This document shows positions 33,293 to 59,351 of a stretch of DNA of 64,000 nucleotides, in pieces. The translations under genes were made by a program, and so were the position numbers. The notes under the pieces were generated by a model, which was not told the DNA's origin, ran no database searches, and worked only from the letters and a program-made list of their open reading frames with translations. The stretch spans positions 1,922,001 through 1,986,000 of the forward strand of contig NZ_CP041235.1 of assembly GCF_014905115.1 (NCBI RefSeq), given 5' to 3'. Origin of the DNA: Sulfurimonas sediminis (GTDB taxonomy: Bacteria; Campylobacterota; Campylobacteria; Campylobacterales; Sulfurimonadaceae). Position 1 is the first letter of the stretch, and the number at the start of each line of letters is the position of its first letter.

Positions 33293-33317
33293 TCCGGAAT
33301 CGGTACTTCAGTGCCGA
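33293..33317. repeat. Partial copy of the dispersed repeat: one hairpin arm
   Basis: This segment, ending at the nfo stop codon, contains CGGTACTTCAGTGCCG, a 6-bp stem with a TTCA loop. It closely matches one arm of the repeat at 54279-54303. It lies just downstream of nfo and could act as its 3' hairpin. Confidence 0.65.
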
Positions 33318-34208
33318 CTACTCACAAAACGAATACAAAAGCTTTATCTCCTCAGCCCATATCGTCTCATCTATTGTCTCAAGTATCAACGGAATATCAT
33401 TCATACGTTCATCATTCATTATAAAACGAAACGCATCCAGTCCTATTTCTCCTTTTCCCAGAGAGTGGTGTCTGTCCACTCTGCTTCCCAAAGGCGGTTT
33501 TGAATCATTCAAATGCATACCACTCAAATACTCAAAGCCGACAATCTCGCCAAACGCATCCCAGGTTTTATCATAGGCCTCTCGCGTACGAATGTCATAC
33601 CCTGCCGTAAACATATGACAGGTGTCTATGCAGACACCGATTCTTGATTTGTCTTCTACCTTATCTATGATATATGCCAGATGTTCAAATTTGTAACCAA
33701 GATTACTCCCCTGCCCTGCTGTATTTTCTATAACTGCTTTGACATTTTTCGTTTTATCGAGTGCAAGATTAATCGACTCGGCAATAACGTCAAGACATTT
33801 GTTTTCTATGGTCTGCAGCAAATCCGCATCCTCTTTTTGTTTCTTTGTCAGTTTTGTCAGATGACTGCCGGGATGAAAGTTAAGTTTGTCAAGACCCAAA
33901 GCATCACACCGTTGCAGTTCATCTATAAAAGCTGCTCTTGATTTTTCAAGTTTTTCAACTTCTGGATGCCCCAGATTTATCAGATAACTGTCATGCGGCA
34001 ATATATGTTTTGGTAAAATTCCACTCTCTTGCAAAGCAGTTTTAAATTTTTGTATCGTCTCTTCATCTAAAGATTTTGCAACCCACTGTCTCTGATTTTT
34101 TGTAAAAAGAGCAAATGCTTTTGCTCCAATCTCCTGCGCATTTTTTGGAGCATTATAAACACCTCCGCTTGCGCTTACATGTGCACCTACATATTTTTGA
34201 CCTGTCAT
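33318..34208 (-). CDS. nfo: Endonuclease IV
   Basis: A 296-residue AP endonuclease of the Nfo family, which cuts DNA at abasic sites in base-excision repair. The TIM-barrel metal-binding motifs are clear: [54 protein letters not shown] and [25 protein letters not shown] (in parts). Length is standard. Its start overlaps the end of the lipoprotein gene by 4 bp. Confidence 0.97.
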
Positions 34209-34861: not shown

Positions 34862-34995
34862 CACTGCCATTAAGTTAAGCATTTTTTTTGGAACGCGGAC
34901 TTCAGTCCGGGCTGAGAGTGGCAAGAGTATTGCAACAGCCGGCACTGAAGTACCGGTTCCGAGAAAGCATTAATTTTATGACCATAATAGCAGTG
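34862..34995. mobile_element. Dispersed MITE/REP-like palindromic element, copy 1
   Basis: A 134-bp element with imperfect terminal inverted repeats, CACTGCCATTA on the left and TAATAGCAGTG on the right. It contains two internal hairpin arms (CGGACTTCAGTCCG and CCGGCACTGAAGTACCGG) joined by AGAGTGGCAAGAGTATTGCAA. It is highly similar over its length to copy 2 at 54252-54384. It carries no gene and lies between the small Cys protein and the polymerase gene. Confidence 0.75.
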
Positions 34996-54251: not shown

Positions 54252-54384
54252 CACTGCCATTAAGTTAAGCATTTATTTGGAACCGGTACTTTAGTGCCGG
54301 CTGAGAGTGGCAATACTATTGCAACAGCCGGCACTAAAGTACCGGTTCCGAAAAAGCATTAATTTTCTTCACTTAATGACAGTG
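54252..54384. mobile_element. Dispersed MITE/REP-like palindromic element, copy 2
   Basis: A 133-bp element similar to that at 34862-34995. The ends are CACTGCCATTA and TAATGACAGTG. Inside, two perfect 25-bp inverted arms occupy 54279-54303 and 54325-54349 around a 21-bp loop; each arm also folds alone (CCGGTACTTTAGTGCCGG). Outside the ends, TTGCCACTCTCAGCC at about 54227-54241 repeats part of the loop in reverse, and GGGTTCCGAAA recurs at about 54398-54408, making nested palindromes. It lies between ilvE and the SPFH gene. Confidence 0.8.
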
Positions 54385-56496: not shown

Positions 56497-56527
56497 AAGG
56501 AGAAATGAAATTTGAAATTTGTTTTTA
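56497..56527 (-). repeat. 31-bp repeat at the porin 3' end (inverted copy at 59365-59398)
   Basis: Read in the porin direction this is CTAAAAACAAATTTCAAATT followed by TCATTTCTCCTT. An almost identical sequence, in the gene's own direction, follows pstS (59365-59398), with one inserted base. The porin stop codon lies inside. Confidence 0.7.
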
Positions 56528-57853
56528 GAAGAACCACTGAGAGGTAACTTTTATTCTACGCTCTTTTTCGTTCCCTATGTTTGCACCATATTCATCTTCT
56601 TGGAATGTCAATCCGGCTTTAATCGAGTTCCCCATAAGGTACCAGTTTACACCGACTAATTTAGATGTTAAGTCGTAACCGTCCAAATCTTTAAATTTAT
56701 CCCAAGATTCATATCTTACAAATGGAGCGATAAAACCATAATCTACAAAGCAGTATTCACCAGTTACATACCAACCGTTTGATTTTCCTCTTGTTGTGCT
56801 TGCCCAGTCTTTTGCGACACCATCAAAGTCAAAGTATTCTGCTTGAACAAAAGCACCTTTATAGTGTGCTGACATTTCAAGATTTAAGAGTTTGTGATCT
56901 ACAGAAGTAGCTACATTATTTGTTGTTGTGTACTGAATATCAGGACTTACCCAGTAACTTGCACCAATTTCAAAGTGTTTTCCCTGCCCAAAATAACTCT
57001 CAGTTCTTTTTTTCTCTTCCCAGCCATCAAATGGAGAAAGAACAATCTTTCCACCATAAAAGAAGCTTTTTTGTAAAAAGTCAGAACCATTGAAACTATT
57101 TCCTGAAGCATCTTTCAGTTTTCCAGAGTAAACACCATCACCTACAGCTATTTCATAGTGAATTTTTTTCTTCCAGTTACCATAAACCTGCGCATTTGTA
57201 CCACGACGGTTATGTGTAATATACTGTGCCGCTTCATCCGCTACATGAGGACGGTCAAAGTGAAGCACACGCGCTGATTTTACAGTTTCTGTACGGGAAA
57301 CATCAATTTTTGCACGAAAAAGCTTAAAATTTACAAGTGACGAATCAAAAGGTTTTTTGATTTTTACATAGGCATCACCGACATTGAATGACTGCTCTCC
57401 TTTGTCTTCAAAATTTGCTTTATCATTTCGTACATCCATTGTAAAAGAAGCATACTTGTTAAAACCCGCTGCTACTTCAAAACGAACACGTCTCAAATAG
57501 GCATCATAATAACTTGTTGTCGCACCTGTTGCCAAATCCTCAACACTTCTATTTTCAAATGTACCCTGAATACGCACACCTGCTTTTAGCCACATATCAG
57601 GATTGTCCTGTGCAACAAATTTCATATTAATATGCGTCTGCTTGCCCAATAAAAAGTTTGGAGATTTCTTGTCTACTATAGTAATATTTTGTTTTGTATT
57701 GCCAAGACTTTTTGTATCCAACAGTGTTCTGTTCGGTGCAGGTTGCGTAAACACTTGTCCGTTAGCATCTTGATATAATTTGATTTCATTAGCATTGGCA
57801 GTAACTGAGCTTAGAGTGAAAGCAGCTAAAGCTGATAAAACGATTTTATTCAT
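56525..57853 (-). CDS. OprP/OprO-type phosphate-selective porin
   Basis: A 442-residue outer-membrane porin of the Porin_O_P type. A signal peptide (MNKIVLSALAAFTLSSVTANA) is followed by a beta-rich barrel, starting with the family's opening region (KMKFVAQDNPDMWLKAGVRIQGTFE in parts) and ending ..VTSQWFF, a terminal Phe. Many Lys and Arg residues fit an anion channel. It is divergent from pstS and shares its regulatory region, which supports phosphate uptake over other anions. Its -10 TATACT and Pho-box-like sites lie upstream at 57884-57916. Confidence 0.85.
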   Translation of the reverse strand: MNKIVLSALAAFTLSSVTANANEIKLYQDANGQVFTQPAPNRTLLDTKSLGNTKQNITIVDKKSPNFLLGKQTHINMKFVAQDNPDMWLKAGVRIQGTFENRSVEDLATGATTSYYDAYLRRVRFEVAAGFNKYASFTMDVRNDKANFEDKGEQSFNVGDAYVKIKKPFDSSLVNFKLFRAKIDVSRTETVKSARVLHFDRPHVADEAAQYITHNRRGTNAQVYGNWKKKIHYEIAVGDGVYSGKLKDASGNSFNGSDFLQKSFFYGGKIVLSPFDGWEEKKRTESYFGQGKHFEIGASYWVSPDIQYTTTNNVATSVDHKLLNLEMSAHYKGAFVQAEYFDFDGVAKDWASTTRGKSNGWYVTGEYCFVDYGFIAPFVRYESWDKFKDLDGYDLTSKLVGVNWYLMGNSIKAGLTFQEDEYGANIGNEKERRIKVTSQWFF

Positions 57854-57883
57854 TTTGAAATTCCTTTTTGTTTTGTTGGCGGA

Positions 57884-57917
57884 AGTATAAAATATCTAGG
57901 TTACATAAAGGTTACAA
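57884..57917 (-). promoter_or_regulatory. Pho-box-like operator and -10 box of the porin gene
   Basis: Read leftward: TGTAACC (57910-57916) and TGTAACC (57899-57905) form an 11-bp direct repeat, then 9 bp, then TATACT (57889-57884). This is the arrangement of a PhoB-type activated promoter, where repeats replace the -35 box. The pstS promoter at 58016-58048 mirrors it exactly. The repeat is followed, away from the gene, by AAAACGGCAA, part of an 18-bp inverted repeat shared with the pstS side. Confidence 0.72.
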
Positions 57918-57988
57918 AACGGCAACAGGCAACAACCCTATACTATATTTATATCTGCTACAAAACAATTCAAGTGACAATACCTTTG

Positions 57989-58005
57989 AACTTTGTCACA
58001 AAGTT
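57989..58005. repeat. Perfect 7-bp palindrome between the two Pho-type promoters
   Basis: AACTTTGTCACAAAGTT has 7-bp arms around TCA. Near it, GTGACAA (57974-57980) and TTGTCAC (57993-57999) are also inverted repeats. It could be a binding site for a second regulator, or a boundary between promoters. Confidence 0.45.
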
Positions 58006-58006
58006 T

Positions 58007-58048
58007 TTGCCGTTTTGTAACCTTAGTGTAATAAAAAAAGTCTATACT
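58007..58048 (+). promoter_or_regulatory. Pho-box-like operator and -10 box of pstS
   Basis: TGTAACC (58016-58022) and TGTAATA (58027-58033) are 11 bp apart; TATACT at 58043-58048 follows after 9 bp. The block 58007-58024 (TTGCCGTTTTGTAACCTT) is the exact reverse complement of 57908-57925, upstream of the porin. A transcription start near 58055 is predicted. Confidence 0.75.
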
Positions 58049-58052
58049 TTCA

Positions 58053-58322
58053 TAAGTGCCTGACAAGAATAAATGACATATTTAACAACATACAAAGGAT
58101 TTAGTTTCAAGGCGAACTTTTGTTGGCGATGCTAGCATCGTTAACGGAAGTTCAACGCGGAAAATGAGTCCTTTGTATGTTGCCCTTCGGGTGAAGAGAG
58201 AAAAAACAATCTAACTTCGTTGAAAACCCTTGAAGCTACCAGTAGCTCTTGCGGATTTTCGCCTTGTATCTTGCATTTTCTCTCTTCATTAAATTATGTC
58301 ATTTATTCTTGTCAGGCACTTA
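58053..58322. other. 270-bp nested-palindrome element in the pstS leader (MITE or structured RNA)
   Basis: Terminal inverted repeats AAGTGCCTGACAAG... (58054-58080) and their 27-bp exact complement (58295-58321) enclose two hairpins, A (58086-58182; arm ends CAACATACAAAGGA, centre CGATGCTAGCATCG) and B (58193-58287; arm ends GAAGAGAGAAAA, centre AGCTACCAGTAGCT). Between them CCCTTCGGG can form a short UUCG-type hairpin. Many imperfect positions in hairpin A are wobble-compatible (T:G), which fits selection on RNA, though C-to-T decay of a transposable element would look alike. No target duplication is visible. It sits between the -10 box and the pstS ribosome-binding site (AAGGTG) and accounts for most of the 493-bp gene gap. 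It has no coding potential. Confidence 0.75.
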
Positions 58323-58346
58323 ACTAAAATTAAAAAGGTGTAACAG

Positions 58347-59351
58347 ATGACAAAAGTAATCAAGTTAGCTCTTGTAGCTTCAGTTCTTGCAGGCGGACTC
58401 AGTGCAAATGATGTACTCAAAGGAAGTGGTGCTTCTTTTCCGTATTCGGTATATCAAAAATGGACAAAAGCCTACTATAAAGCTACTGGTATCAAAGTTG
58501 ACTATATTTCAAAAGGTTCTTCAAAAGGGATCAAAGATGCAAAAGCTAGACAGGTTGATTTTGCAGGGACTGACAAACCTCTTTCTCCAAAAGTTTTGAA
58601 ACAAAACAATCTTTATCAGTTTCCGGGTGTTGTCGGTGCAATTACAATGGGTTACAACATTCCGGGTGTTTCCAACTTAAAACTCAGCAGAAGTGCAATC
58701 GTTGCAATCTCTGAAGGGAAAATAAAATACTGGGACAACAAGTTAATCACTGCTGCAAACGCAGGATTGAAACTGCCACATGAAAAAGTGACATTCGTTC
58801 ACCGCGCAGACGGCTCAGGAACAACATTCAACTATACATACTTTTTAAGTAAAGTATCCAAAGAGTGGCGACATACTTACGGTGCAAAAAAATCTTTGAA
58901 CTGGCCGGGAAACCAACATATCGGTGGAAACAAAAACACAGGTGTGGCAAGTCTTATCAAACAGACTCCCTACTCTGTCGGATACATCGACTATGCTGAT
59001 GCACAGAAAAACGGCATTGTGATGGCTTCGGTTGAAAACAGAGCAGGACACTACATCAAACCTGAATTAAAAGCATTTCAAATTGCCGCTGCAAAAGCAA
59101 ATCTGGATCCTAAAAAAGATTTTTACTCTATTATTGCCGATCCAAAAGGTGCCTACTCTTATCCTATCGTAGCTGCTACATTTATTCTGGTGCCTGCTGA
59201 AAAGCAAGAAACAAACAAAAAAGTAACAGCATTTTTTGACTGGTCATATAAAAACGGTCAAGAAATTGCAAAAAGTTTGGGTTTTGTTCCGTTACCGGAC
59301 GCACTTACAGACAAAATCAGAAAATACTGGGAAGAGAAAGGGATTAGATAA
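58347..59351 (+). CDS. pstS: Phosphate-binding protein of the Pst ABC transporter
   Basis: A 334-residue periplasmic phosphate receptor. Signal peptide MTKVIKLALVASVLAGGLSA; phosphate-binding loops GSGASFPYSVYQKW (28-41), AGTDKPL and HRADGSGTTFNYT (near 152-164). It delivers phosphate to PstCAB. Start ATG 58347 with AAGGTG 8-9 bp upstream. It is followed by a 113-bp gap before pstC that contains the 31-bp repeat. Confidence 0.96.
   Translation: MTKVIKLALVASVLAGGLSANDVLKGSGASFPYSVYQKWTKAYYKATGIKVDYISKGSSKGIKDAKARQVDFAGTDKPLSPKVLKQNNLYQFPGVVGAITMGYNIPGVSNLKLSRSAIVAISEGKIKYWDNKLITAANAGLKLPHEKVTFVHRADGSGTTFNYTYFLSKVSKEWRHTYGAKKSLNWPGNQHIGGNKNTGVASLIKQTPYSVGYIDYADAQKNGIVMASVENRAGHYIKPELKAFQIAAAKANLDPKKDFYSIIADPKGAYSYPIVAATFILVPAEKQETNKKVTAFFDWSYKNGQEIAKSLGFVPLPDALTDKIRKYWEEKGIR

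Follow-up and report, generated by a model that had tools for sequence, protein, structure and literature searches.

Upstream of pstS, the 64,000-nucleotide stretch of Sulfurimonas sediminis DNA analysed here ("the window") carries a nested palindrome at 58053-58322, which takes up almost the whole of the gene's 5' leader. The preliminary description had set this palindrome about 5 bp behind the pstS -10 box, with the ribosome-binding site just beyond its other edge, and both placements agree with our reading: the element starts 4 bp past the putative TATACT, and an SD-like AAGG (58335-58338) and the ATG at 58347 follow its far edge. A consensus promoter scan detected no pstS promoter, and the -10 box was assigned by eye only. 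Further upstream, GTTAC/GTAAC repeats (e.g. GTTACATAAAGGTTAC) lie at 57880-58030, ahead of both pstS and a divergent porin-like gene (56525-57853); similar repeats were seen by eye in relatives too, and these are perhaps a phosphate-regulator box. The features of the locus, with the basis for each in brackets, are the following.

58043-58048, + strand: putative pstS -10 box TATACT, intact after the insertion (by-eye likeness to the pstS upstream regions of relatives)
58053-58054, no strand: left copy of the TA target duplication (single TA at the empty site in two relatives, G011, locus L047, and G073, locus L048)
58053-58080, + strand: left terminal inverted repeat including TA, TAAGTGCCTGACAAGAATAAATGACATA (sequence reading; genus-wide pattern search)
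58055-58320, + strand: 266-bp putative MITE, AGTGCC...GGCACT (sequence reading, ORF list, copies, empty sites)
58086-58182, + strand: hairpin arm A, with the conserved internal loop CAAGGC / AACG (folding, copies, covariation counts)
58183-58191, no strand: central mini-hairpin CCCTTCGGG (folding; 98.9% of cells paired in the order-wide core alignment)
58192-58288, + strand: hairpin arm B, inverted homologue of arm A (folding, covariation counts, model R1)
58208-58273, + strand: inner 66-nt module of arm B, the best conserved part (hit by model R1)
58295-58322, - strand: right terminal inverted repeat including TA (sequence reading, copies, pattern search)
58321-58322, no strand: right copy of the TA target duplication (empty sites in relatives)
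58347-59351, + strand: pstS, phosphate-binding protein, behind the insertion (ORF; identified from its resemblance and from the pstC/A/B/phoU-like ORFs after it)

The exact inverted ends reported earlier are present, at a length of 28 bp rather than 27 (58053-58080 pairs with 58295-58322 on reading the sequence). The nesting of the palindrome is real as well: the palindromic tips CGATGCTAGCATCG and AGCTACCAGTAGCT occupy 58127-58140 and 58234-58247, and the mini-hairpin between them lies exactly in the middle of the 270 bp (positions 131-139). The interior thus consists of a CCC-GGG mini-hairpin flanked by two hairpin arms that are homologous and inverted, and the ORF list holds no ORF of at least 60 aa inside the 266 bp. 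When arm A was aligned to reversed arm B, only 5 of 500 shuffles were as good. Folded as RNA, 58040-58345 reached -131 kcal/mol against -61.1 (sd 4.8) for shuffles (z -14.6), and folded as DNA it gave a z of -13.1; in neither case did any of 100 shuffles equal it.

Dispersed copies, empty sites and terminal repeats

The complete genome (2.32 Mb, one contig) holds five full-length copies of 81-100% identity, at 698, 1381, 1385, 1980 (pstS) and 2310 kb, all bounded by TA and with the same kind of ends, in addition to partial matches and five elements with other or broken ends. Across the genus, matches to the element were found in 65 of 135 genomes, S. sediminis included. Orthologous sites that lack the element were recovered for all five copies in G073, each with a single TA where S. 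sediminis reads TA-element-TA. The pstS site is also empty in G011, whose pstS is 97% identical, and in both relatives the promoter reads TATACTTTCA-TA-ACTAAAATT; for the other four copies, joined flanks were searched in six relatives. Some sites fit more poorly: G002 reads CA at pstS; at 698 kb G011 reads TG, and G002 and G092 carry a small deletion; at 1385 kb there is a 3-nt difference adjoining the TA in G073, and CA is found in G002, G092 and G011. Given its absence from the nearest relatives, the pstS copy would most likely have arrived after the split from them, precise loss in the relatives being a less simple alternative.

Around 55 elements, gene starts within 400 bp were counted 30 times on one side and 31 on the other, that is, with no orientation bias, and 52 of the 55 are clear of ORFs of at least 90 aa, the ORFs in both counts being called by length only. 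In one copy from G045 (L240), the mini-hairpin and a portion of arm A are missing. In G081 (contig C66:1984-2745) an element occupies the same intergenic place as the S. sediminis copy at 698426, a place that is empty in G073 and G011; this may be either a shared old insertion or a repeated target. The copies at 1385 and 1381 kb (L003 and L004), which lie 4 kb apart in opposite orientation, share an additional ~19 nt that includes a second CCCAAAGGG-type mini-hairpin, located at the tip of arm B. A composite transposon formed by these two was considered; between them, a histidine-kinase-like and a nucleoside-transferase-like ORF were recognised by eye. A phage or plasmid origin was rejected, as the pstS-type sequence had no match in phage and plasmid collections and the arm-tip pattern was absent from viral contigs.

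The common form of the 28-bp end, with at most 3 mismatches, was found in 26 of 135 genus genomes and its reversed-pattern control in none. Unpaired repeated ends in G127 led to an IS of 1065-1069 bp with such ends and TA on both sides; of the 28 bases in its ends, 24 are identical to the window copy and 25 to the common form. Two frames of one copy of this IS matched PF13358 DDE_3 (E 1.2e-32) and helix-turn-helix families including HTH_23, which is the make-up of an IS630 element. Relatives of IS630 type at E 1e-10 occur in 10 of the 135 genus genomes. S. sediminis itself has three intact, near-identical IS630 copies and one degraded match, and the encoded protein is 41% identical to that of G127. 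The better end of this IS630 is TAAGTACCTATCCAAAAATAAAACC (the opposite end differs at 4 of 31 bases), and its ends closely match those of sister cloverleaf elements at 599 and 2026 kb. A predicted transposase with matching ends is thereby found for two terminal-repeat types. For the pstS type, no IS with such ends was found in the S. sediminis genome, where the terminal repeat (at most 3 mismatches) is confined to the five MITE copies; its mover is therefore absent there or is a cross-acting relative. For a third type, a motif search of 15 stretches around TAAGTAAGAGGGC-type ends from five genomes gave no IS630-like ORF.

The three IS630 copies of S. sediminis, at 228113, 863392 and 1027671, are 99.7-100% identical over ~1.13 kb, which suggests recent activity. 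Miniature palindromes made of two terminal repeats back to back, with no interior, were also seen (L098:1366-1424; L099:1172-1218 in G072; L102:1158-1204 in G002), and these are either deletion remnants or minimal elements. In addition, a second and more abundant palindromic repeat of ~116 bp, CATTAAGTTAAG...GGAACCGGTACTTnAGTGCCGGC..., lies in the window at 54265-54378, 34875-34988 and 33296-33318. It gave 79 BLAST matches in the genome counting both strands, or about 40 places, and 40 of 87 candidates were scored. Cloverleaf elements have copies of it as neighbours at 344 and at 118 kb, and a sequence like it seems to interrupt a cloverleaf element copy in G069.

A cloverleaf core in many kinds of ends

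Model R1, built on the inner portion of arm B (66 positions, 35 sequences), gave 15 matches in the S. sediminis genome, corresponding to ten elements, in five of which arm A was matched on the opposite strand; the arms are therefore inverted homologues. Among 298 genomes drawn evenly from the order Campylobacterales and searched with stricter filters on, the core was matched at E 1e-4 in 21, belonging to 8 of 81 genera, the own genus included. The exact arm-tip pattern, run over the species genome collection, returned 49 stretches titled Sulfurimonas, Sulfurimonadaceae, Campylobacterales, Helicobacteraceae or Arcobacter. By eye, the core sits inside about a dozen terminal-repeat types, for example TAAGTGCC, TAAGTACC, TAAGTAAGAGGGC, TATACCAATCCC, TATTGCCATTTTAG, TATACACATCCC, TAACTGACCTTACG, TAAGTTCTTGATC and TAAGTCCTTAGTC; these were read from clean-ended rows of a local alignment (57 rows) that overshoots into the flanks in many others. 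Most elements fold to the same four-way plan, with exceptions: the elements at 344 and 1480 kb, taken with their flanks, form one long hairpin in which arm A pairs with arm B, as does one copy each of G348 and G167. Among 32 folded cores, three (L231, L141 and L167) do not follow the plan, and the mini-hairpin is missing in L166 and L244.

Of these 32 cores, 29 from different types were aligned, leaving out a near duplicate (L237), a partial core (L241) and one with an insert in arm A (L141). In this alignment 87.4% of cells are paired, against 65.2% when shuffled and 38-49% when slid, and both partners vary in 76 of 87 base pairs, with a covariation score of 0.572 against 0.186. Among 25 pstS-type copies (both ends at most 6 mismatches from the terminal repeat, 200-330 bp apart), 39 of the 101 predicted pairs vary in both partners. 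Each of the two structures comes from the very alignment on which it was counted, so that the counts are favoured, and relatedness inflates the contrast with shuffles. As for conservation, the inner arm B alignment covers 64 window positions, and 24 of these do not vary among the 35 sequences. Paired and unpaired positions are equally conserved in arm A (0.659 and 0.658), which speaks against strong loop constraint, and in arm B the unpaired ones score 0.761 versus 0.699 for the paired.

It had been proposed that many imperfect pairs in hairpin A are G:T-compatible, as for an RNA under selection. This holds on the + strand, but it is only half of the pattern, hairpin B being reversed, with A:C on that strand. 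When the count is limited to pairs predicted on both strands, G:T is the more frequent at 16 positions and A:C at 7 in arm A, against 4 and 15 in arm B. Since the arms are inverted homologues, both wobble biases favour the strand that reads CAAGGC...AACGAAG. With a structure derived from the minus strand, the preference in arm A vanishes (16 versus 12 positions, 75 versus 79 cells), while arm B keeps its own. For the element as a whole, the two strands are about equal in folding (alifold -115.1 and -121.2). These wobble counts, weak and non-independent hints, would point to each arm working, or having once worked, as a single strand.

Origin and upkeep of the element

A regulatory leader of pstS was among the options of the preliminary description, and such an evolved RNA (a riboswitch, a thermosensor or a protein-binding structure, with the cloverleaf controlling translation or transcript life) would suit several observations. 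The element begins at the expected transcription start and stops short of the ribosome site, its fold is very stable, and its pairs covary strongly across copies. However, pstS matches occur in 103 of the 135 genus genomes, and among the upstream regions taken from 30 of these 103 (one of them with only 132 nt upstream) the element is present in the window's own and absent from the other 29, which by eye mostly have a similar -10 box and ribosome site. Moreover, copies stand beside other genes without orientation preference (30 versus 31), and no Rfam family is matched: Rfam 15 gave no match at gathering score in 9 loci, and two sub-threshold matches in 57950-58400 scored 18.0 against 60 and 20.6 against 50 bits. 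Covariation among homologous leaders had been linked to an RNA role; covariation was found, yet it runs across dispersed mobile copies and not across pstS leaders. As an evolved feature of pstS, the leader has thus to be given up, and we regard it as very improbable. It is possible that the element at pstS now forms the transcript start and alters expression; the transcript would probably start within the first bases of the element, which would put a folded leader of ~290 nt on the mRNA.

Integron attC sites are folded hairpins with unpaired bases, an R/L box consensus and a partner integrase. Comparison of the element by eye with this consensus gave no fit.

The option that held is that of a MITE at the promoter: the copies are scattered and unlinked to pst genes, the TA duplication is found at five of five sites, and a transposase occurs with closely similar ends. 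The dispersed copies, the TA duplication, the IS630-like ends and the absence from the other 29 pstS upstream regions read together argue that 58055-58320 is a non-autonomous MITE of IS630 (Tc1/mariner-like) type that moved into a TA, the pstS copy being missing from the nearest relatives. We hold this reading, drawn from sequence comparison, to be highly probable.

ISNpu3 is an IS of the IS630 family. The Nezha MITEs of cyanobacteria, which are ISNpu3-like, resemble the present case, compared by description, in that their movement by a resident IS is proposed (PMC3049150). RUP of S. pneumoniae, a repeat of 107 bp, was proposed to be mobilised by IS630-Spn1 at TA targets, and it shares with the cloverleaf MITE a short, non-coding and dispersed nature, the TA target, IS630-like ends and a stem-loop fold (PMC2229807, PMC3049150). 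By these descriptions RUP is set apart as a simple 107-bp repeat of one species, whereas the element described here has 266 bp, two inverted arms and a mini-hairpin, with a core occurring in many end types of one order. By these descriptions, RUP is the closest known relative. The Caulobacter CIR likewise has two long hairpin arms with a linker and a structure conserved across species, but it is contrasted with end-pairing repeats (PMC2229807); in the present element the paired ends add a third long stem, and both insertion at TA and a partner transposase were found. The Correia/NEMIS elements of Neisseria are also MITEs with TA at their ends, and RNase III was proposed to cleave their transcripts and thereby to alter the mRNAs of neighbouring genes (PMC2229807); by description they differ from the cloverleaf MITE in ends and sizes. 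None of the matches listed in full-text searches on MITEs or IS630 in this genus or phylum, and on bacterial MITEs of cloverleaf or nested form, which leave subscription papers outside, describes the cloverleaf family, and it is apparently undescribed. The mechanism of the MITE is ordinary; its anatomy and breadth are new.

For the MITE at pstS, we infer mobilisation in trans by analogy with RUP. A full-size IS elsewhere would supply a transposase of the IS630 family, which would recognise the AGTGCCT... ends; the element would then move into a TA, with duplication of the TA, and one copy would have landed in the TA just behind the pstS -10 box in this Sulfurimonas lineage.

Within this IS630-type MITE, the cloverleaf might be kept passively, if template switching during replication re-copies one arm onto the other and so maintains complementarity without selection. 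Arm homogenisation by template switching was reported in yeast (PMC8604942); both stem sides change together, the end-only miniature palindromes are what slippage at palindromes would give, and in arm A conservation is the same for paired as for unpaired positions. Homogenisation should nevertheless erase asymmetry, and the internal loop remains asymmetric (CAAGGC versus AACGAAG); in 5 of the 29 order-wide cores it is gone from arm A and still kept in arm B. The preference for wobble on one strand in each arm also goes against passive upkeep, although it is modest and non-independent, and its arm A part is lost with the minus-strand structure. We give passive upkeep a chance clearly short of even. 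A structured interior that functions as single-stranded DNA or RNA, on either strand, and aids the element's own spread, e.g. by joining the ends or by binding a host protein or the transposase, comes nearer to an even chance, though still below it. It would agree with a core found in 8 of 81 genera and about a dozen terminal-repeat types, with change on both sides of 76 of 87 pairs while 24 of 64 inner arm B positions stay invariant, and with one arm being in sense on each strand in an element that shows no bias in insertion orientation. On the other side, no binding protein, transcript or activity is known for the core, unpaired positions show no greater conservation than paired ones in arm A, and only slightly greater in arm B, and the IS630 copies here, on reading, carry no such core between their ends. 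In addition, the conservation of the module is inflated because the tip pattern that fetched many of the 35 sequences was part of the module.

With less weight than for the mobilisation in trans, we infer that the cloverleaf interior is kept because it is used in transposition, in replication or by a host protein, and not by repair alone. Perhaps, and this we put forward tentatively at less than even probability, the core is a selected module: a pair of inverted homologous hairpins, one of which would be in its functional form on any strand that is transcribed or single-stranded. Such a module would have moved between many IS630-type ends across Campylobacterales, or have survived them. If this is true, the element would be a structured parasite of transposons and not a simple deletion derivative of one IS.

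The tempting reading of a riboswitch-like leader at pstS is thus removed, and in its place stands a mobile foldback element that lands in promoters and leaders of the genus. It poses the question of why the interior of a MITE, normally dead weight, keeps a four-way fold across bacterial families while the ends change.
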